Source: Verrucomicrobiales bacterium (lineage in GTDB: Bacteria; Verrucomicrobiota; Verrucomicrobiia; Limisphaerales; UBA11320). Taken from it: 64,000 bases of DNA. Positions 15,118-24,943 of this stretch are shown here, piece by piece (within the stretch, counting starts at the first letter, position 1; each line of letters begins with the position of its first letter). The translations under genes were made by a program, and so were the position numbers. Where the stretch lies: assembly GCA_016793885.1 (NCBI GenBank), contig JAEUHE010000260.1, forward strand, positions 1 through 64,000, in the 5' to 3' direction. The notes beneath the pieces are model-generated. The model made no database searches. It saw only the letters and a list, made by a program, of their open reading frames with translations, and was not told the DNA's origin.

Positions 15118-16455
15118 TTACTTCCCAACAAATCCAACAGCTCGGCCGAGTTGAACCAGGAGATAGGCAACGCCTGCGGCCGCTGGAATGGTCAGGACCC
15201 ACGCCCAGAGAATTTTTTCGATGACTTTCAGCTTCAGTGCGCTGAAACGTTTGGCGCAGCCTACGCCCATGATAGAGGTGGTGATCGCGTGAGTGGTCGA
15301 CACCGGCATGCCCAGGCTGCCGGTTACAGCCAGCACGGTTGCCGCGGTAGTCTCGGCCGCAAAGCCGTGCACCGGCTGAAGCTTAACCATCTTATGCCCC
15401 AGGGTCTTGATGATGCGCCATCCGCCGGCGGCTGTGCCCATCGCCATGGTCAGTGCGCAGAGGACCACCACCCAGTCGGGCACCGCCTGGCTGGTAGGAT
15501 CTCCCACGGTGGGCATGTAACCGAATTGGAGGAAGCTTGGCAGCCACGATTCAAACGTGTCCCCCAGGGTTAGCTTATGCAGGTCGGAGCCCGCGGGAGT
15601 ATGCAGGAAACTCATCCATGCCGGCACCTGATCAAACAACCCGGCTTTGGTTCCGGAGACCAGGGCCAGGGTGATGATGCCCATGCATTTGGTGGCGTCG
15701 TTCATTCCATGGCTGAATCCCATGTAGGCCGAACTCGCCAGCTGGAGCTTGCCGAAGACCCGGTTGACCGAACTCGGTTTCCAATTGCGCAGCAGTGCGT
15801 AGAGCAGGGCCATGAAAACGAGGCCGCAGCTAAAGCCCAGAATCGGGGAGGTCACCATGGGGATAATCACCTTATACCAAATGCCCGATTTCTCAATGCC
15901 AGGCTTTTCTTTGACCATCATGACTCGCCCGCCAAAGGCTACGACGGCGACTTTGTTGGTGCCCACCTGCAAGAAGGTGGTACCCGGCTTCAGTTGGTGG
16001 CTGGCAATCACGCTGGCCACCTCTGGAGACGGTGCCACCAGGATCTTGGCGGCCTTGGGCTTTACCTCGCTCCATTTGACCGCTTCAAAGTTGCCGTGGG
16101 CCGAAGCGAGGGCTGCGCCCACCAGGCTGCCGATTAGCGCATGGCTGGAACTGGACGGCAGTCCGAACCACCACGTGAGCAGGTTCCAGGCAATGGCCGA
16201 GGTCAGCGCGCAAATCAGGACTTGTTGAGTAATGAATTCGGCCTCCACCAGTCCGCTGGAAATGGTTTTGGCCACGGCCAAGCCAAAGAAGGCCCCAAGC
16301 AGATTGGTCACAGCGGCGAGCAGTATTGCCTGGCGCGGAGTGAGGACTTTGGTCCCTACCACCGTGGCGATGGCATTTGCCGTGTCGTGGAATCCATTGG
16401 TGTAGGTGAACACCAAGGCCACGAAGATGACGGTGAAAACGAGGAACAGTTCCAT
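15118..16455 (-). CDS. pit: PiT-family low-affinity inorganic phosphate transporter
   Basis: A 445-residue integral membrane symporter for phosphate (or metal phosphate). The two inverted PiT signatures are visible, 'TNGFHDTANAIATVVGT' near the N-terminus and 'GFSHGMNDATKCMGII' in the second half, with the C-terminal 'GSLGMPVSTTHAITTSIMGVG'. A soluble insert of roughly 80 residues lies between the halves (around residues 130-210), as in many bacterial PitA proteins. It follows two DUF47 genes on the same strand with 10 and 25 bp gaps, the usual transporter/accessory arrangement. The divergent unit on the other side is the high-affinity Pst operon. Confidence 0.95.
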   Translation of the reverse strand: MELFLVFTVIFVALVFTYTNGFHDTANAIATVVGTKVLTPRQAILLAAVTNLLGAFFGLAVAKTISSGLVEAEFITQQVLICALTSAIAWNLLTWWFGLPSSSSHALIGSLVGAALASAHGNFEAVKWSEVKPKAAKILVAPSPEVASVIASHQLKPGTTFLQVGTNKVAVVAFGGRVMMVKEKPGIEKSGIWYKVIIPMVTSPILGFSCGLVFMALLYALLRNWKPSSVNRVFGKLQLASSAYMGFSHGMNDATKCMGIITLALVSGTKAGLFDQVPAWMSFLHTPAGSDLHKLTLGDTFESWLPSFLQFGYMPTVGDPTSQAVPDWVVVLCALTMAMGTAAGGWRIIKTLGHKMVKLQPVHGFAAETTAATVLAVTGSLGMPVSTTHAITTSIMGVGCAKRFSALKLKVIEKILWAWVLTIPAAAGVAYLLVQLGRAVGFVGK

Positions 16456-16465
16456 AGGATCAAGA

Positions 16466-17092
16466 TCAGGAATTCTTCAGCAGGACATGGGAAAGAACAT
16501 TGCCGGCGTCTCGGCAGCGATCGACCGCCTTTTCGTTCAGGGCAAACAGGTCGTAGAGCATGACGGCCTTCAAGGGGGGGTAGCCCGGCTGATAGAGCTG
16601 GCTCATGAGGTTGAGAAGGGTTCGGTCGGCCTCAGCCTCGATCCTCTGAAGTTCGACCTGCAGGGCTTTGATGCCCGTCAGGTCCCGGCCATCCTTGAGG
16701 GCTTCGGTCATCTTGAAGACCAGCCCGATCGCCTGCTCGATCAGTTTCACCTGCCCCGTGAAATCCACGTCGCGGATCTGATCGGCCACGATGATGTATC
16801 TCTCGGCGAACTTCTCGATGGTCTTTGGGATTTTATAGAGTGTGTCGGCGAGCGCTTCGATATCCTCGCGCTCCATGGGGGTGACGAAGGTGGTGATCAG
16901 CATCATTTCGAGCCGATTCGTGATTTCCTTGTCATTTCTCCGGGCAATCGCGAACGCCTCGACGGTGGGTTTTGTCCCCGGTTGGATCATCTCAGCCAAG
17001 GCTTTGACGGCCTTGCATCCTTCGGCGGCGCTGGCTTGGATGAGGTCGAAGAATTCCTGTTCTCGACCGAGAATCCTCTGAAAGCTGATCAT
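16466..17092 (-). CDS. DUF47 PhoU-like Pit accessory protein, copy 2
   Basis: A 208-residue all-helical DUF47 protein, related to PhoU by fold. Family features include 'ITNRLEMMLITTFVTPMEREDIEALADTLY' (split here as 'FVTPMEREDIEALADTLYKI') and the metal-binding type 'VDRCRDAGNVLSHVLLKNS' ending. DUF47 proteins are cytoplasmic partners that modulate adjacent Pit transporters. It is a paralogue of the gene just upstream (17118-17753), with near-identical C-termini, and sits 10 bp before pit. Confidence 0.9.
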   Translation of the reverse strand: MISFQRILGREQEFFDLIQASAAEGCKAVKALAEMIQPGTKPTVEAFAIARRNDKEITNRLEMMLITTFVTPMEREDIEALADTLYKIPKTIEKFAERYIIVADQIRDVDFTGQVKLIEQAIGLVFKMTEALKDGRDLTGIKALQVELQRIEAEADRTLLNLMSQLYQPGYPPLKAVMLYDLFALNEKAVDRCRDAGNVLSHVLLKNS

Positions 17093-17117
17093 AAGTCTAA
17101 GTCGGCGACAGAAGCGT

Positions 17118-17753
17118 TCAGGAATTCTTGAGGACGATGTGTGAAACCACGTTGCCGGCGTCGCGGCAGCGATCGATGACCTTTTCTAGCAACTCGTACA
17201 GGTCTTTCATAGCCAGCACCTTGGTGGCCTCGTATTTGCCGCTGTAGAGGTCGCGCAAGATCTCGAGAATCAGCTTGTCGGCATCTCCCTCGACCTGTTG
17301 CAGGCGCGAGTTGAGTTCCTTCACGCTCTCCAGTTGGCCAGCCCCGACCTTGGGGAGCAGTTTGACCAGGGAAACGACATGCTGGGTGGCGGCATCCAGC
17401 AGGGTGATGTGCTTCCCGAAGTCGAGTTCGCGGACGATGTGCGCACTGATGATAAAGCGCTCGGCGATCTTCTCCACTGTCTTGGGAATCTTATAAAGAG
17501 CTGAACTCAGCACCTCGATATCCTCTCGTTCTAGTTGGGAGACAAAGGTTTGAACCAGGGCTTCGTTGATCTGGTTGGTGATGCGCTTGTCAGCCTCCTT
17601 GGCCTGATGAAAGTCTGCCAGGCTCGGAGTCGAGGCCGGTGACTGGAGCAGCTTCGTCAGGGCTTGCACACTGTGACGAGCTTCTTCGGCACTGGCTTCC
17701 AATAAGCCAAAAAAGCGATCGTCCTTACCAAAAAGCTTTTGCAGGGAAAACAT
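17118..17753 (-). CDS. DUF47 PhoU-like Pit accessory protein, copy 1
   Basis: A 211-residue helical protein of the DUF47 family, first gene of the leftward unit DUF47-DUF47-pit. It carries 'FVSQLEREDIEVLSSALYKI' and the ending 'VIDRCRDAGNVVSHIVLKNS', matching its downstream paralogue at the same positions. The N-terminus 'LFGKDDRFFGLLEASAEEARHSV' is also typical. Two adjacent, diverged copies suggest a heteromeric accessory complex or different conditions of action; this is inference. Its promoter must lie in the 359-bp region shared with phoU. Confidence 0.9.
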   Translation of the reverse strand: MFSLQKLFGKDDRFFGLLEASAEEARHSVQALTKLLQSPASTPSLADFHQAKEADKRITNQINEALVQTFVSQLEREDIEVLSSALYKIPKTVEKIAERFIISAHIVRELDFGKHITLLDAATQHVVSLVKLLPKVGAGQLESVKELNSRLQQVEGDADKLILEILRDLYSGKYEATKVLAMKDLYELLEKVIDRCRDAGNVVSHIVLKNS

Positions 17754-18112
17754 AACGCCCCGATGTCTAGCGTCCGTAACTCAATTGTCACGTACCGTTT
17801 TGTAGGAACCGAGCGATTGAACTATCGGTTGGAAGGAAAAAATCTGATATTTTCCTTTAAAATCGTGTCATTTGGTCGTTGTTCTAGAACTTCTTTCGTG
17901 AGGATCGACTTCAATTCAAGGACATCAACACTCATATATAGGACATGAAATAGTCACGGCTGAATGACTGTTTTAGGACATGAAGCGACAGGGAAGGGGG
18001 AGGAACGGGTTGGTTCGTGCTTGCTGCAGCGAGCTGGGTTTGTTTCCAAAACGTCACAAATGTGACATTGAGGTGTAACCCGTGTCCTATAACTTCATCC
18101 CAAGCACAACAT
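17754..18112. promoter_or_regulatory. Shared control region of Pit/DUF47 and PhoU-Pst units, with repeated ATGTCCT motifs
   Basis: A 359-bp AT-rich gap between divergent phosphate operons. AGGACAT occurs at 17919-17925, 17940-17946 and 17975-17981 (spacing 21 and 35 bp). The same core in inverse orientation, TGTCCT, lies at 18083-18088, 25 bp before the phoU start. TGTCCTATA occurs in both orientations (minus strand 17937-17945, plus strand 18083-18091). A short palindrome GTCACAAATGTGAC is at 18053-18066. These could be operators for a phosphate-responsive regulator, but they do not match the enterobacterial Pho box (CTGTCAT repeats). No -10/-35 pair is called. Confidence 0.45.
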
Positions 18113-19213
18113 ATGGCCACCCACTACGAAGAGTCGATGCGGCGTGATATCGAGCGTATTCGCTCGAAGATCAATGAGATGGCGACCTTAGGGGAACGCT
18201 CGCTCCTGGATTGCATGAAGGCGTTGAAGGAGAAGAATCGCGTTATTGCTTACTCCATCATTCTGCGCGATCAACGCATCGACGAGTTGGAGAAAGAAGT
18301 GGATCGACTTTGTCTCGAGTTCATTGTTCGGCAGCAGCCGGTGGCGCTTCCTCTCCGGATGGCCTATGCCACCATTCGGATCAATTTGGAATTGGAGCGC
18401 GTTGGAGACTACGCGGAGAGTATTGCGCGCCAAGTGCTTAAACTTGCTTCGATGGAGGTGGAAATCCCGGTGGCGCGGTTCGGAGAGATCGCTGACTTAT
18501 CCATTCCCATGTTGCGGGATTCGGTGCGCGCCTTTGTGGAGCAGGACGCTGCTCTCGCGCGATCGACCATGGCGACGGAGGAGTTGGTCGACGCCCTCAA
18601 GAGCCGTTTGAATGCGGATTTGATGCGTCTGAACCGGGAGAACAAGATTCCCATCGAGTCCCTGAACTCGTTGATGATGATTGCTCGGCACTTCGAGCGT
18701 GTCTCCGATCAAGCGAAGAACATTTGCACGGAGGTCCTTTACATGTGCACAGGCGAGTACTCCCGGCACAAGGGGGGCGAGGCCTTGCGGATGCTCTTTG
18801 TGGACCAGCGGAACGCCTGTCGCAGCCAAATGGCGGAGGCGATTGCCGCCTCCCTCGGGCAGCCCGAATTCATTTTTGCGAGTGCAGGATTGGAGCCCAC
18901 GGAGGTCGATCCTGCGACCATGACTTTTCTTCGGGGCAAGGGACTTGATGTGAGTCGGTTGGCGAGCAAAGCTGTTTCCCAGATCCCGAATCTAGAGCAC
19001 TACCAGATCATCATTGCTCTGGCCAAAGAGGCCGAAAAAATCTTTCCGAAGCCCCCCACCAAAACGGTGTGCCTCGATTGGAGTGTCGCCGATCCTTCCA
19101 AGGTGCAGGGCACGCCGGCCGAAGTTCAGGCAGCCTACGAATCAACGTACCAATTTCTGCACGCTCACATCCAGGATCTTGTGGAGGCGGTGCTGGGTGA
19201 CGAAACCGACTAG
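18113..19213 (+). CDS. phoU: PhoU fused to a low-Mr phosphatase/ArsC-like domain lacking the catalytic Cys
   Basis: 366 residues from the ATG at 18113; the open frame extends upstream but the PhoU fold begins here. Residues 1-215 are two PhoU three-helix repeats, with metal-site motifs 'NLELERVGDYAESIA' and 'ARHFERVSDQAKNI'. PhoU links Pst activity to phosphate signalling. Residues ~225-362 resemble low-molecular-weight tyrosine phosphatase/thioredoxin-type arsenate reductase. The P-loop reads DQRNACRS (231-238), where the family has CxxxxCRS, so the nucleophilic Cys is Asp231 while Cys236 and Arg237 remain. The late 'SVADPSK' (Asp327) fits the general-acid loop. The second redox Cys of ArsC is absent. 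It is probably a ligand-binding or pseudo-enzyme domain. First gene of the pst unit. Confidence 0.85.
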   Translation: MATHYEESMRRDIERIRSKINEMATLGERSLLDCMKALKEKNRVIAYSIILRDQRIDELEKEVDRLCLEFIVRQQPVALPLRMAYATIRINLELERVGDYAESIARQVLKLASMEVEIPVARFGEIADLSIPMLRDSVRAFVEQDAALARSTMATEELVDALKSRLNADLMRLNRENKIPIESLNSLMMIARHFERVSDQAKNICTEVLYMCTGEYSRHKGGEALRMLFVDQRNACRSQMAEAIAASLGQPEFIFASAGLEPTEVDPATMTFLRGKGLDVSRLASKAVSQIPNLEHYQIIIALAKEAEKIFPKPPTKTVCLDWSVADPSKVQGTPAEVQAAYESTYQFLHAHIQDLVEAVLGDETD

Positions 19214-19235: not shown

Positions 19236-20162
19236 ATGATCAAACACATAGACATGGTTATCAACCGGAGGCAGGTATTGGCGGTGGCCCTCGTCAGCTG
19301 CATCGCAGTCACGGGGTGTGGGCCGAAGCAAGAGGGGGCCGCTGGCGGAGGAGCCGCGGGTGCTGCCAAGGTCACTTCGGTTCAGAACATTGGCTCTGAC
19401 ACGATGGTCAACCTCGCCCAGGCATGGGCCGAGAAGTACCATAGCGTTGATCCAACGGTCTCCGTGGAGGTCTCGGGCGGGGGATCGGGCATCGGTGTTG
19501 CCGCCCTGATCAATGGGACCTGCGATATCGCCAACTGCAGCCGCGCGCTCGAACCCGAGGAAGTAGAGAAGGCCAAGACCAAACATGGGCACGAGCCGAA
19601 GGAATACTTGGTTGGTTTCGATGCCTTGGCCATCTATGTGCATCCCAGCAATCCCATGACCGAAATCTCGGTTGAGGAGCTGAGCGAGATTTACAAAGAA
19701 GGTGGCAAGATTGAAAAATGGTCGCAGCTAGGTGCCACCTTGCCGGGCGGGGAGGAGATCATTCGGATTAGTCGTCAGAACAATTCTGGAACCTACCATT
19801 ACTTCCGAGAAATGGTGGTTGGGAAGAAGAGCGACATGAAGCTTGGATCCCGCGACATGAACGGTTCGAAGGATGTGGTGGAGCTGGTGGCGCGCACTCC
19901 GAACTCGATCGGCTACAGCGGGCTGGGGTACAGCACCGACAAGGTTAAGATTCTCAAAGTGGCGAAGACCAAGGGCGGATCCTATGTGGTGCCGAGCATT
20001 GAGAGCACGTGGGACAAGAGCTATCCCATCGCCCGCCCGATGTTCATGTACACCCCCGGCCAGCCTGCCGCACATGTTCAAAAATATTTGGACTGGGTCA
20101 TCAGCGACGCGGGTCAGGTGGTGGTGAAAGAGAGCGGGTACGTGCCGCTGCCTAAGAAATAA
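19236..20162 (+). CDS. pstS: Phosphate-binding lipoprotein PstS
   Basis: 308 residues from the ATG at 19236. A lipoprotein signal ends at lipobox 'AVTGC', so the protein is membrane-anchored on the periplasmic side. The phosphate-binding loops are visible: 'NIGSDTMVNLAQAW', 'SGGGSGIGVAALINGTCDIA', 'SRQNNSGTYHYF' and 'NSIGYSGLGY'. It captures phosphate for PstCA. It lies 22 bp after phoU and 243 bp before pstC, with a stem-loop in that gap that could set the usual excess of binding protein over permease. Confidence 0.95.
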   Translation: MIKHIDMVINRRQVLAVALVSCIAVTGCGPKQEGAAGGGAAGAAKVTSVQNIGSDTMVNLAQAWAEKYHSVDPTVSVEVSGGGSGIGVAALINGTCDIANCSRALEPEEVEKAKTKHGHEPKEYLVGFDALAIYVHPSNPMTEISVEELSEIYKEGGKIEKWSQLGATLPGGEEIIRISRQNNSGTYHYFREMVVGKKSDMKLGSRDMNGSKDVVELVARTPNSIGYSGLGYSTDKVKILKVAKTKGGSYVVPSIESTWDKSYPIARPMFMYTPGQPAAHVQKYLDWVISDAGQVVVKESGYVPLPKK

Positions 20163-20225: not shown

Positions 20226-20405
20226 AGTCGTTCAGCTAACTGATACATGAAATGGGAAGCTTCGAAAGAAGACACGGTCCGGCTTCCGGAGCCATCTGCT
20301 TCTTCAGCTGTACCTGGGGCCGGGAGGCTCGCAGGTCTTGAGCTTCCCTCGATGAAGGGTGCGGACGCGCACCCACAGACCTTATTCAAAAACCCGCAGG
20401 CACCC

Positions 20406-21317
20406 ATGGCTCATTCCAAGAGTAAACGAAGAGAACGAGGGCGAACCTCGATGCTCGGAGAGAGGATCATTGAAACGCTGATACGCCTATGCGGCATGAG
20501 CGCGATCCTCTTCGTATTCGCCATCTTCTTCTTCGTGTTTCGCGAGGGGGCTCCGATTATCGGGAAACTCGATCTCGGCAAGTTTCTGTTCACTCCCACC
20601 TGGTACCCCACATCGCTGAACCAGCCGCGCTACGGTGTCGGTGCGCTCATTGTAGGAACGTTCAGCGTCACCGTTCTGGCGATGGTGATCGCGGTACCCT
20701 TTGGGTTGGGGGCGGCGGTCTTCATCTCGGAGTTTTGCGGACGGAAGATGAAGGAGACCTTGAAGATCATCATCGAGCTGCTAGCCGCCATCCCCAGCGT
20801 GGTTTGGGGGTTTATCGGCCTCACGGTGATGAACGTGGTCATTCAAAAGGTCTTCAATGTTCAAGTAGGCCTGAACGTGCTGAATGCGGCCATCCTTCTG
20901 GCCTTAATGAGCGTCCCGATCATGGTCAGCATCGGCGAAGATGCTTTGAAGGCGGTGCCTGATTCCTATCGCGAGGCAGGTATCGCCCTGGGATGCACTC
21001 GTTGGCAGTTGGTGTGGCGGGTGCTGTTGCCGGCGGCGAAAAACGGTTTGCTGGCCGCGGTTTTGCTGGGAGTGGGCCGGGCGGTGGGAGAGACGATGAC
21101 GGTGTTGATGGCCACTGGTCACTCGGTCAACATCCCCCATAGCATTTTCGATTCGGTCCGAACTCTGACGGCCACGATCGCCGCCGAGCTGGGCGAGACT
21201 TCGCAGGGATCTGACCACTACCGGGTCCTGTTCCTCATCGGGATTCTGCTGTTCAGCATTACGTTCGTGGTCAACCTGGCGGCTGACCTGATTGTGAAGG
21301 GGATCCGAAAAAAGTAG
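20406..21317 (+). CDS. pstC: Phosphate ABC transporter permease PstC
   Basis: 303 residues from the ATG at 20406, chosen because the basic N-terminus and first membrane helix ('LIRLCGMSAILFVFAIFFFV') follow directly; an upstream in-frame start at 20247 is less likely. About six transmembrane helices. The ABC-coupling EAA loop reads 'YREAGIALGCTRWQLVWRVL'. PstC pairs with PstA to form the membrane channel. It ends 9 bp before pstA. Confidence 0.95.
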   Translation: MAHSKSKRRERGRTSMLGERIIETLIRLCGMSAILFVFAIFFFVFREGAPIIGKLDLGKFLFTPTWYPTSLNQPRYGVGALIVGTFSVTVLAMVIAVPFGLGAAVFISEFCGRKMKETLKIIIELLAAIPSVVWGFIGLTVMNVVIQKVFNVQVGLNVLNAAILLALMSVPIMVSIGEDALKAVPDSYREAGIALGCTRWQLVWRVLLPAAKNGLLAAVLLGVGRAVGETMTVLMATGHSVNIPHSIFDSVRTLTATIAAELGETSQGSDHYRVLFLIGILLFSITFVVNLAADLIVKGIRKK

Positions 21318-21326
21318 CCCATACTC

Positions 21327-22241
21327 ATGAACGCCACTCCTCCTTCCAGCCCGGCCATGTTCGTCGAAACGGCCTTTATTCGAAAGAAGCACCGCAACGA
21401 GACCCTCGCCAAATACATCTTTGGCCTGATGGCCTTGGCGATGATCATACCCCTCCTGCTGATCGTGGGTTACCTGGTCATCAAGGCTATGCCTCTCTTG
21501 TCCTGGGATTTCCTGACCACCAATCCCACCAATGGGATGAGAAAAGGAGGGATTTGGTCAGCGTTGCTCGGGACGATCTACCTGGTTGTGCTCTCACTCT
21601 TCATCTCCGCCCCGATCGGTGTTCTCGCGGCAGTTTACCTGAATGAGTATGCCAAGGACAACTGGTTCACCCGGGTAGTGCAACTCGCGGTCGTGAACCT
21701 TGCGGGAGTGCCGAGCATCGTCCATGCGCTCTTCGGCCTGGGCGCCTTCGTGCTGTTTGCCAAGCTTGACCGTTCGATTCTGGCCGCTTCGCTCACCCTG
21801 GCCATTATGACCCTTCCCGTGGTGATCGCTTCGACTCGGGAGGCCTTGGCTTCGGTTCCGGTCAGCTTTCGAGAGGCCTGTTGGAACGTGGGAGCCACCC
21901 GCTGGCAGACCATCAAGACCATCGTGTTGCCGAATAGCATCAGCGGCATTCTCACGGGCGTCATTCTGCAGGTCAGCCGGACCGCCGGGGAGACGGCTCC
22001 GATCATGTTCACGGGTGCCGTATTTTATCGGAACATCGCTGAGGGGAATCTCTTCGCCTATGGCATCAAGGACCAGTGCATGGCTCTGTCGATGCACCTC
22101 TACACAGTCACGACCCAGGTCACCAACGCCCCGGAAGCGCTTCCGTACGCCATCGCCGTGACGCTCCTCGGCACGGTGCTTTTGGTGAACGCCACGGCGA
22201 TCATTTTCCGAGTCTACCTCCGCTCACGAAAAAAATGGTAA
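21327..22241 (+). CDS. pstA: Phosphate ABC transporter permease PstA
   Basis: A 304-residue inner-membrane permease with about six helices. The EAA coupling loop is 'FREACWNVGATRWQTIKTIV', and 'AGVPSIVHALFGLGAFVLF' is the conserved PstA core. The C-terminus ends in basic residues at the cytoplasmic face. The last codons overlap the pstB1 start (22235), giving coupled translation. Pairing PstC/PstA heterodimers with a PstB1/PstB2 heterodimer would make the whole transporter asymmetric. Confidence 0.95.
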   Translation: MNATPPSSPAMFVETAFIRKKHRNETLAKYIFGLMALAMIIPLLLIVGYLVIKAMPLLSWDFLTTNPTNGMRKGGIWSALLGTIYLVVLSLFISAPIGVLAAVYLNEYAKDNWFTRVVQLAVVNLAGVPSIVHALFGLGAFVLFAKLDRSILAASLTLAIMTLPVVIASTREALASVPVSFREACWNVGATRWQTIKTIVLPNSISGILTGVILQVSRTAGETAPIMFTGAVFYRNIAEGNLFAYGIKDQCMALSMHLYTVTTQVTNAPEALPYAIAVTLLGTVLLVNATAIIFRVYLRSRKKW

Positions 22242-23026
22242 ACATCGACCCTACACCAACGGCCGGCGTCGGAGTGAAAAAGATCGAGGTCAAAGATCTA
22301 CGGTTGAGCTATGGCCCCAAGGAGGTCATCCATGGCATCACCTTCGATATCTACGAGAACGAGATCTTTGGGATCATCGGGCCGGCGCAGTCGGGCAAGA
22401 CTTCCCTGCTGAGATGCATCAATCGAACGATCGATTTCACGGCTGGCGCTAAGTTCACTGGAACGATCCAAGTGGACGGGGAGAGCGTGGCCGACACCCG
22501 TGACGTTTACGGGCTGCGTCGAAAGATCGGCATGGTTGCGCCTCTGCCGGTGGGGCTTCCGTTGAGCATCTACGACAATGTTGCATTCGCGCCCAGAACC
22601 TCAGGAATGAACAACAAGGGTGAGCTTGATGCCCTGGTTGAGAAGTGCCTGCGGCAGGCGGCGCTGTGGGATGAGGTCAAGGACCGGCTTGACAGCCTGG
22701 GCACCAAGCTCAGCGGAGGTCAGCAACAACGGCTCACCATCGCGCGCGCTCTCTCGCATCAGCCTGATATCCTGTGCCTCGACGAATTTAGCATCGCCAT
22801 CGATCCTGTCACCACCATGCGCATCGAAGACGTGCTCAAGGAACTGAAGCAGGAGATGACCATCATCCTGGTGACTAACCTGGTGCAGCAAGCCCGCCGG
22901 CTGGCCGCGCGCACCATGTTTTTGTGGAACGGGGAGATCATCGATCTTTGCAGCACGGAGGTGATGTTTGGGCCCAATCCGCCGGATCGGCGGACCTACG
23001 AATACGTCAACGGGATCTTCGGATGA
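22235..23026 (+). CDS. pstB: PstB1: phosphate transporter ATPase with degenerate Q-loop and H-loop
   Basis: 263 residues. Walker A is GPAQSGKT (49-56), the signature is LSGGQ (159-163) and Walker B is 'ILCLDEF' with Glu184. Two residues invariant in working PstB are changed. Where PstB has MVFQ, this protein has MVAP, so the Q-loop Gln is Pro103; where it has VTHN, this one has VTNL, so the H-loop His is Asn215. The D-loop is also altered (SIAID for SALD). Overall similarity to PstB is clear ('LPLSIYDNVAF', 'LWDEVKDRLD'). It can offer a good LSGGQ to a partner but should hydrolyse ATP poorly at its own Walker site. Start and stop overlap pstA and pstB2. Confidence 0.9.
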   Translation: MVNIDPTPTAGVGVKKIEVKDLRLSYGPKEVIHGITFDIYENEIFGIIGPAQSGKTSLLRCINRTIDFTAGAKFTGTIQVDGESVADTRDVYGLRRKIGMVAPLPVGLPLSIYDNVAFAPRTSGMNNKGELDALVEKCLRQAALWDEVKDRLDSLGTKLSGGQQQRLTIARALSHQPDILCLDEFSIAIDPVTTMRIEDVLKELKQEMTIILVTNLVQQARRLAARTMFLWNGEIIDLCSTEVMFGPNPPDRRTYEYVNGIFG

Positions 23027-23826
23027 GCCATATGACACTCGATTCCAACCCCGCCTCGACCCAGGTTTCCTACGGGATCACCACCAAGGATCTCTGCCTC
23101 TGGTACGCCAAGTTCCAGGCTCTCAAGAACGTCACTGCGAACTTCAAGCGAGGGATCATCACGTCGCTCATCGGCCCAAGCGGCTGCGGAAAAACCACTT
23201 TGTTGCGTTGCTTTAACCGGGTCAACGAGCGTTACGGCTACGTGACGACAACCGGAGAAATCCGGCTGCTGGAGAAAAACATCTATGACCCCGACGTCTC
23301 GCTGATCGAGCTTCGGAAGAGCGTTGGGATGGTGTTCCAGCGTCCGAATCCCCTGCCTATTTCCGTTTACGAAAACGTGGTGTTTGGGCTCCGCATTCAC
23401 AACGAGAACACTCCTTCCAAAAGCGCGCTCGATGAAGCGGTGGAGCGAGCCCTCACCGAGGTAGGGCTGTGGAAGGATTTGAAGGATCGGCTTCAACAGC
23501 GTGCCACCTCGCTGCAGTTGGAGCAGCAACAGAAACTCTGCATCGCCCGGCTGCTTCCGCTGAAGCCGGAGATCATCTTGATGGACGAGCCCTGCAGCGC
23601 CTTGGATGTTGAGGGGACTCGAGCGATTGAGGAGCTGATGTTTGGCCTGAAGGGGCGCTATACCATCGTGATTGTGACTCACAACATGGCGCAGGCGAGG
23701 CGAACCAGCGACGAATGCATCTTTATGCTCTTGGGCGAGGTGATTGAGCACGCCCGCACCGAGGACCTATTCCTGACCCCGCGCAATCCCAAAACGGCGG
23801 ACTATATCGAGGGTCGTTACGGCTGA
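23023..23826 (+). CDS. pstB: PstB2: phosphate transporter ATPase with degenerate LSGGQ signature
   Basis: 267 residues, starting in an ATGA overlap with pstB1. Walker A is GPSGCGKTT (51-59), the Q-loop is MVFQRPNP with Gln106, Walker B is 'IILMDEPCSALD' with Glu189, and the H-loop is VTHNM with His220. All are canonical for PstB. The ABC signature, normally LSGGQQQRLCIAR, reads LQLEQQQKLCIAR (164-176), so Ser and both Gly that contact ATP gamma-phosphate are lost. The defect complements that of PstB1, pointing to an obligate heterodimer with one consensus ATP site. Last gene of the pst unit, ending 5 bp from the convergent PhnD-like gene. Confidence 0.9.
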   Translation: MSHMTLDSNPASTQVSYGITTKDLCLWYAKFQALKNVTANFKRGIITSLIGPSGCGKTTLLRCFNRVNERYGYVTTTGEIRLLEKNIYDPDVSLIELRKSVGMVFQRPNPLPISVYENVVFGLRIHNENTPSKSALDEAVERALTEVGLWKDLKDRLQQRATSLQLEQQQKLCIARLLPLKPEIILMDEPCSALDVEGTRAIEELMFGLKGRYTIVIVTHNMAQARRTSDECIFMLLGEVIEHARTEDLFLTPRNPKTADYIEGRYG

Positions 23827-23831
23827 GCCCT

Positions 23832-24764
23832 TCAAGGTCTCCTCCTCCCGTTGAACACACCGTCTGTCTTCATCGCCTCGCGCAGACCGTCGAAGTAACC
23901 ATCATCCGCCGCCAAGATGGTGGTGTTGGTATCTCCCGATGCGCCGATCGACGGCACAAGTGGCACCTCGAGCAAACTCTGTTTCAAAGCTTGCTTCAGC
24001 TTGACCGGAAGCGCCGAACGGCAGACCCAGGGTCGGCCGAAGTTGCGGAAGCGGCTGAGAATCCTGAGGTGATGCCCATTGCGAAGCGCCTGCTCGAATT
24101 CGATCATGTTGAGCGCTCCGGCGTCGTATTGGCCAGACGCGACCGCCGCTGCCACTTCGCGGTGGCTTCCGAGATGGGTTTGTCTGGCGAAGTCCTTGGC
24201 GAGGATGCCCAACTCAACCAGGTGTTGTTGCGATAGAAAATGACCGGTCGTTGACCGGCTATTGCCAAACGCGATTGATTTACCCTTCAGATCCTTCACG
24301 GTGGCGATGTTGCTGTTGCTGCGAACGCAGATCACCCCCGCGAGTAGATTGGCATCGCTTGGACTCCGGACCGCGAGCAGCTCCAGGTCGGGATTTTTTT
24401 TCCTGGCCAGCACATAGTTCGCTGCGCCGAGTTCTAAAAAATCGACATCTCCTTCCTGAAGGAAGCGCTCCCCGTCCTCGTAGGTTCGCATCACCGACAG
24501 ATAGACCTCTACAGGTTGCTCAAAGCGTTGGGACAGGGCCGTCTGCAAGGCTTTGGTGAAGGGGAGATAATGCGCAGCGGCGTCCTTCGGCTTCTGCGAA
24601 GAGTAGACCCCGAGGCCGAGTCGGTAAGGGGCGGCTTGAGTGGTGGGCGCGCAGATCAGTATCAGCAGCAGGCGTGTGAGCAGGATGCAACTTGGGGTGG
24701 TGAAAAGCCTCAACGCTCGCCAAGCTGCTGCTCGTTCGGCGGCTTCGGACCGGTTCAACATCAT
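23832..24764 (-). CDS. PhnD/SsuA-type periplasmic binding protein
   Basis: About 310 residues from paired ATGs at 24761/24764; an upstream ATG at 24833 is also open. A signal peptide ('LLTRLLLILICAPTTQA') precedes a type-2 periplasmic binding fold of the PhnD family. Seen: 'LGLGVYSSQKPKDAAAHYLPF' region, 'DVDFLELGAANYVLA', 'GKSIAFGNSRSTTGHFL' and 'VASGQYDAGALNMIEFE'. Relatives bind phosphonate, phosphite or other anions. No permease or ATPase for it lies nearby. Its position beside pst suggests a role in phosphorus uptake or sensing; the ligand is unknown. Confidence 0.8.
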   Translation of the reverse strand: MMLNRSEAAERAAAWRALRLFTTPSCILLTRLLLILICAPTTQAAPYRLGLGVYSSQKPKDAAAHYLPFTKALQTALSQRFEQPVEVYLSVMRTYEDGERFLQEGDVDFLELGAANYVLARKKNPDLELLAVRSPSDANLLAGVICVRSNSNIATVKDLKGKSIAFGNSRSTTGHFLSQQHLVELGILAKDFARQTHLGSHREVAAAVASGQYDAGALNMIEFEQALRNGHHLRILSRFRNFGRPWVCRSALPVKLKQALKQSLLEVPLVPSIGASGDTNTTILAADDGYFDGLREAMKTDGVFNGRRRP

Positions 24765-24943
24765 TGAGTGGGTATGGCTCATCCTCCCTAATCTTCGGGC
24801 TATGCCCGTTCGACTCCGACTGCTTGATTCCATCGGCAGTTTCGGCGACCCACTTCAGGGCCTGCTGGGGAAGGGTATCGCTCCGCACTTGAATATTCCT
24901 GGCAGTCACGCTTGAATGCGATGAATTGATCACACCCTCCGCC

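Follow-up and report, generated by a model that had tools for sequence, protein, structure and literature searches.

The gene at positions 18,113 to 19,213 (forward strand) of the window, i.e., the whole stretch of 64,000 nucleotides analyzed here, encodes a PhoU protein, termed PhoUx, that carries an additional C-terminal domain with the predicted fold of an arsenate reductase (ArsC) and an Asp at the position of the nucleophilic Cys. Among its homologues, the constants of the family are the acid at this site, the fold, and the operon that phoUx leads, which ends in two PstB ATPases with complementary motif losses. We lean toward the view that PhoUx serves as the dedicated PhoU of a second Pst importer, one that is Pho-regulated and has an asymmetric PstB1-PstB2 pair, and that its pseudo-ArsC domain, locked by Asp231, is a docking or regulatory module.

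A PhoU protein with an added ArsC-like domain

The open reading frame (18,113–19,213, forward strand) was confirmed and its product is 366 aa long, comprising a PhoU domain (aa 1–215) and a pseudo-ArsC/low-Mr phosphatase domain (aa 224–361), as assigned from profiles and the predicted structure. In Pfam, PhoU matched twice (E 2.7e-34) and LMWPc matched aa 228–356 with 43.5 bits against a cut-off of 23.2. Among the NCBIfam models, TIGR02135 (PhoU) scored 147.9 bits, above its cut-off of 130.25, and the ArsC models matched with scores under their cut-offs. Each PhoU repeat carries an E(D)xxxD motif (E95/D99 and E195/D199); the first is kept in 66/66 homologues and the second in 62/66.

Full-length PhoUx was modeled with AlphaFold2 from a 63-homologue alignment, giving a mean pLDDT of 93.1 and a whole-protein pTM of 0.63, which leaves it uncertain how the two domains are placed relative to each other. 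The best structural match of aa 2–215 is PhoU 1t72 (Z 30.4), and aa 224–361 match the Bacillus subtilis ArsC 1jl3 (Z 20.8, rmsd 2.0 Å over 136 residues). When the C-terminal domain was modeled from Asp-type sequences alone, the ArsC fold was obtained again (pLDDT 94.3, pTM 0.89, Z 20.8), and a sequence profile of the Asp-type domains gave the glutaredoxin-type ArsC 2l17 as its top match in the PDB (E 7e-20). As modeled, the domain is a complete low-Mr phosphatase/arsenate-reductase fold with ArsC as its nearest relative; the alternative that it does not adopt the LMW-PTP fold is ruled out by the models and their structural matches. The initial annotation had described two PhoU repeats followed by a domain of this fold. 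Pfam and AlphaFold2 support the arrangement, the LMWPc match and the similarity to 1jl3 support the fold, and neither of the two models departed from it.

PhoUx resembles PhoU (TIGR02135; Aquifex 1t72, Pseudomonas 4q25) in its two three-helix repeats (Z ~30), in both E(D)xxxD motifs, and in being encoded with pst genes. It differs in its added C-terminal ArsC-like domain, in the position of its gene, which is first in the operon where classical phoU is last, and in forming its own PhoU clade. With ArsC (B. subtilis 1jl3; Deinococcus 8p6m; glutaredoxin-type 2l17), it shares the whole fold and the P-loop context xxNxxxSxxAE, whereas it has Asp at the nucleophile position, lacks the redox Cys residues, has often lost the Arg, and is fused to PhoU. 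Identical domain order is found in the Cys-type PhoU-ArsC fusions of the same phylum (L010–L013). Unlike PhoUx, to which they are 25–29% identical, these fusions keep the Cys P-loop and the redox Cys residues, are encoded at the 3′ end of classical pstSCAB rather than at the head of an operon, and appear to have separate origins. Neither a PhoU-arsenate reductase fusion nor a PhoU pseudophosphatase was found described in the open-access literature, a weak sign of novelty, as subscription papers lie mostly outside that body of work.

The former active site across the family

The homologue set (n = 66) derives from one Verrucomicrobiota order and from a second class of the same phylum. Full-length homologues were present in 61/293 sampled genomes of the source order and in 6/288 of the second class; a search of genome contigs with the bare C-terminal domain as query returned one locus. 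According to the translation and the homologue alignment, the P-loop DQRNACRS (18,803–18,826, forward strand) places D231 at the nucleophile position, followed by R237 and S238, so that Asp replaces the Cys of the Cx5R motif exactly as the initial annotation had read it. A tabulation of this position, which that annotation had proposed, gave D in 63 homologues, E in two, and G in one. The lone Gly231 homologue carries D at 232; therefore, an acid is present at 231 or 232 in 66/66, and Cys at 231 in 0/66. These 66 homologues rule out a single-strain mutation or a sequencing error, and the change from Cys to Asp emerges as a stable, family-wide trait rather than a deviation from homologues that mostly keep the Cys. 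Among standalone ArsC and LMW-PTP proteins of the same phylum, those of the source genome included, every P-loop read keeps the Cys.

The absence of the second redox Cys of ArsC, already remarked upon in the source protein, holds for the family and extends to the third: position 303 is L or F and position 311 mainly F or L, both being Cys in the four Cys-type fusions. Judged from these residues, with the nucleophilic Cys missing from every homologue, the loss of turnover that had been suggested is the likely outcome.

Arg237 is kept in 28/66 homologues and lost in 38/66, where it is replaced by L, A, T, C, or other residues. Both R237 and D327, the former general acid of the DP loop (19,091–19,093, forward strand), are kept in 27/66 (~40%), PhoUx of the source genome included. 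The earlier statement that Cys236, Arg237, and Asp327 remain is thus correct for the source protein but not for the family, and with Arg237 kept so incompletely, PTP-like catalysis or phosphate binding cannot be the shared function. On the tree of the PhoU parts, the minimum numbers of changes are three at position 231, 17 at 236, 21 at 237, and nine at 327; scored simply as kept or lost, position 237 changed ~13 times. With few changes at 231 and more at 237 and 327, what the family conserves is the acid, not the phosphate-binding Arg or the general acid.

These counts bear on the suggestion, made in the initial annotation, that phosphate, arsenate, or a phosphorylated partner may bind at the pseudo-active site but not be turned over, and that the domain thereby sets PhoU action on Pst. 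The gene does sit in a phosphate operon, the P-loop context is retained (N234 in 51/64 and S238 in 56/64), and weak anion binding would be possible in the homologues that keep both R237 and D327. A sensor built on the P-loop Arg is nevertheless weakened by the frequent and repeated loss of that Arg and by the constant presence of the acid, since a carboxylate at the anion site should repel oxyanions and disfavor a second anion; the DP-loop Asp has also been lost repeatedly. We therefore regard an anion sensor as unlikely.

Far less probable is the second option raised at the outset, namely that Asp231 is itself a working nucleophile or phospho-acceptor that forms an acyl phosphate, like HAD phosphatases or response-regulator receivers. 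Asp is fixed at the end of strand 1, and many members read VDD at this site, which recalls receivers. However, the site at the end of strand 3 where a second acid or phospho-acceptor would be expected varies among the homologues (position 304: S 18, D 17, A 16). The Arg and the general-acid Asp vary as well, and the conservation columns of the C-terminal domain show no conserved metal site. On these conservation grounds, a receiver-like phospho-acceptor was rejected, and little credence is left for an Asp nucleophile of any kind.

Under the reading we prefer, a locked docking or regulatory module, the Asp231 carboxylate may occupy the place of the oxyanion and satisfy the backbone amides of the P-loop, which would keep the domain closed and ligand-like in shape. 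We infer this carboxylate lock from the pattern of conservation: an Asp in place of a bound oxyanion would explain why the Arg and the catalytic Asp are dispensable and why the acid, N234, and S238 are retained. A possible precedent for the exchange of Cys for Asp, in the D2 domains of receptor PTPs, was not found in the literature consulted, and no weight is placed on it.

Descent of the domain and selection upon it

The C-terminal domain appears to descend from an arsenate reductase and to be a pseudo-enzyme now. In the ancestor of the family, the nucleophilic Cys would have been exchanged for Asp and the redox Cys residues lost; thereafter, the P-loop Arg and the general acid would have eroded in many lineages. 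In quick trees with some long branches, the Asp-type domains form a single clade relative to the Cys-type fusions and standalone ArsC (SH-aLRT 99). The Asp-type PhoU parts likewise form a single clade (99), within which the sole "classic" row is L009, a broken member. In this locus and in L122 (both G053), PhoUx is interrupted right after the P-loop and fused in frame to a PstA-like and PstB2-like tail, a join that is either a deletion or a misassembly. The Cys-type PhoU-ArsC fusions sit elsewhere in two places, so PhoU and ArsC were seemingly joined more than once; descent of the Asp-type family from these fusions is unsupported, as the fusions belong to different PhoU and ArsC clades in the quick trees. 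Sequences from the second class branch within those of the order, a hint of horizontal transfer. Among plasmid records, none covered 80% of the query.

Loss of the catalytic and redox residues across the family might also be expected of a decaying, functionless passenger left over from an old PhoU-ArsC fusion, and the C-terminal domain is in fact somewhat more divergent than the PhoU part (mean KL 2.21 versus 2.61). Such decay is difficult to reconcile with a full-length, confidently folded domain in essentially all members, with a single ancient origin, or with the invariance of the acid and of A241, F255, and W323, the last three having undergone zero changes on the PhoU-part tree. In the nine close pairs to which the dN/dS analysis was restricted, remoter pairs being saturated and left out, values were 0.06–0.17 for the C-terminal domain and 0.02–0.12 for the PhoU part. 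The domain is therefore under purifying selection, and a passenger is improbable.

Equally doubtful, if not marginally more so, is an arsenate-linked role, in which the domain would discriminate arsenate at Pst entry or act as a decoy that engages a true ArsC or the thiol donor of such an enzyme. It would fit the separate emergence of the intact-Cys fusions L010–L013 at the ends of classical pst operons, as well as family f82 (L098, L100, L101, L111, L137, and L138), in which a standalone, intact ArsC (CTGNSCRS) is encoded directly downstream of pstB2. It would not be expected from a domain whose redox Cys residues are all gone, and among the Asp-type loci examined, family f82 was the only one in which the operon had an ArsC homologue next to it.

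The pst operon and its paired ATPases

Three 11-bp Pho-box-like direct repeats (GTCACAAATGT, GACATTGAGGT, and GTAACCCGTGT; score 13 of 15) lie upstream of phoUx at 18,053–18,085 (forward strand). GT[A/C]AC-like units repeated every 11 bp are the layout of the PhoB-type Pho box. Three such units at 11-bp spacing, with a score of at least 13 of 15, were found in 22/63 phoUx upstream sequences; at the other spacings from 7 to 16, zero sequences reached 13 of 15, and shuffles gave 0.05. On these sequence grounds, the second Pst system with PhoUx is probably induced by phosphate starvation.

Downstream of phoUx, and on the same strand, follow pstS (19,236–20,162; phosphate-binding lipoprotein-like, TIGR02136 above cut-off, start taken from the reading frame), the permease genes pstC (20,247–21,317; TIGR02138 above cut-off, start uncertain) and pstA (21,327–22,241; TIGR00974 above cut-off), and the ATPase genes pstB1 (22,235–23,026) and pstB2 (23,023–23,826). 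The order phoUx-pstS-pstC-pstA-pstB1-pstB2 recurs in 45 of the 46 testable loci, i.e., those with enough surrounding DNA, the exception being L109 with pstS and pstC only. This gene order supports the link to Pst drawn in the initial annotation, as a genomic association. The source genome also carries a classical pstSCAB-phoU, followed by the top PhoB match of that genome (at 267 bits, short of the 296-bit PhoB cut-off) and a putative kinase ORF; PhoUx is therefore the paralogue belonging to a second Pst system.

Further phosphate-related genes flank the operon. Encoded divergently at 15,118–17,753 (reverse strand) are a phosphate transporter of the Pit type and, adjacent to each other, two DUF47 (PhoU-like) proteins, which brings three PhoU-related genes within 4 kb. 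The DUF47 proteins were named from by-eye sequence resemblance, with no match in NCBIfam, and these divergent neighbors adjoin only some other family members. Convergent with the operon, at 23,832–24,833 (reverse strand), lies a gene whose product resembles PhnD, a phosphate/phosphonate substrate-binding protein (85 bits to TIGR01098, under the cut-off); alongside it, no dedicated transporter genes were seen.

The PstB pair may be the operon's more striking feature. Both proteins score below the TIGR00972 PstB cut-off of 343.2 bits (PstB1 271.5, PstB2 321.9). PstB1 keeps Walker A, Walker B, and LSGGQ and has lost the Q-loop Gln (VAPLPVG) and the H-loop His (VTNLV), while PstB2 keeps Walker A, Walker B, the Q-loop, and the H-loop and reads LQLEQ in place of LSGGQ. 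This complementary loss was observed in ~50 loci, with the PstB2 signature reading LLLEQ or LQLDQ in three variants and LQLEQ otherwise. In an ABC dimer, each ATP site draws its Walker, Q-loop, and H-loop motifs from one subunit and its signature from the partner. Given the respective losses, a PstB1-PstB2 heterodimer would have one degenerate site and one canonical site, the latter formed by the Walker, Q-loop, and H-loop motifs of PstB2 with the LSGGQ of PstB1. In L086, L103, and L135, PstB1 has the Walker A sequence GPAQSAKTS, with Ala for Gly, as would be expected of a non-catalytic PstB1 site. In family f116, PstB2 is followed by a third PstB-like ATPase with a degenerate signature and H-loop (8,689–9,552 in L131, 8,278–9,297 in L133, and 227–1,015 in L136).

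Two adjacent pstB genes also occur in Firmicutes, as in Enterococcus faecalis (PMC12096839) and, as PstBA/PstBB, in B. subtilis (PMC11466899). In the E. faecalis pair, the motifs are intact in both proteins (PMC12096839), unlike the complementary, fixed losses of the PhoUx-linked PstB1 and PstB2. ABC transporters with one degenerate ATP site are on record (Stockner et al., 2020, as cited in PMC11466899). The putative heterodimer would share their combination of one canonical and one degenerate composite site; it would differ from them in that PstB1 and PstB2 are separate subunits of a Pst-type importer. No description of a PstB heterodimer with a degenerate site was found in the open-access literature.

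Coupling between PhoUx and the pair is one-way only. Five genomes with PstB2 have no adjacent PhoUx: the asymmetric pair is accompanied by a divergent classical PhoU in G515, G422, and G534, and no PhoU lies nearby in G423 and G554. An obligate coupling was rejected on this basis, and the extra domain of PhoUx is evidently not indispensable to the pair. In the seven PhoUx genomes with no PstB2 match, the contigs stop near or within the operon.

Taking PhoUx as the dedicated PhoU of this importer, its C-terminal domain may act as a docking or regulatory module that aids PhoUx action on its own PstB pair; the heterodimer, the contact with PstB, and the direction of control are what we infer here. 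A more tentative possibility is that these operons represent a distinct class of Pst importer, in which a heterodimeric ATPase with a single hydrolyzing site is under the control of a PhoU whose pseudo-ArsC domain, permanently "liganded" by its own carboxylate, gates the pump or distinguishes phosphate from arsenate.

The fusion and the split PstB motifs, with apparently only one ATP site able to fire, offer clean handles on how PhoU senses phosphate status and communicates with PstB. The C-terminal domain of PhoUx is also a clear example, from bacteria, of a pseudo-enzyme of the low-Mr phosphatase/ArsC type that is maintained by purifying selection. For proteins of this type, automatic labels such as "arsenate reductase" or "phosphatase" would mislead.
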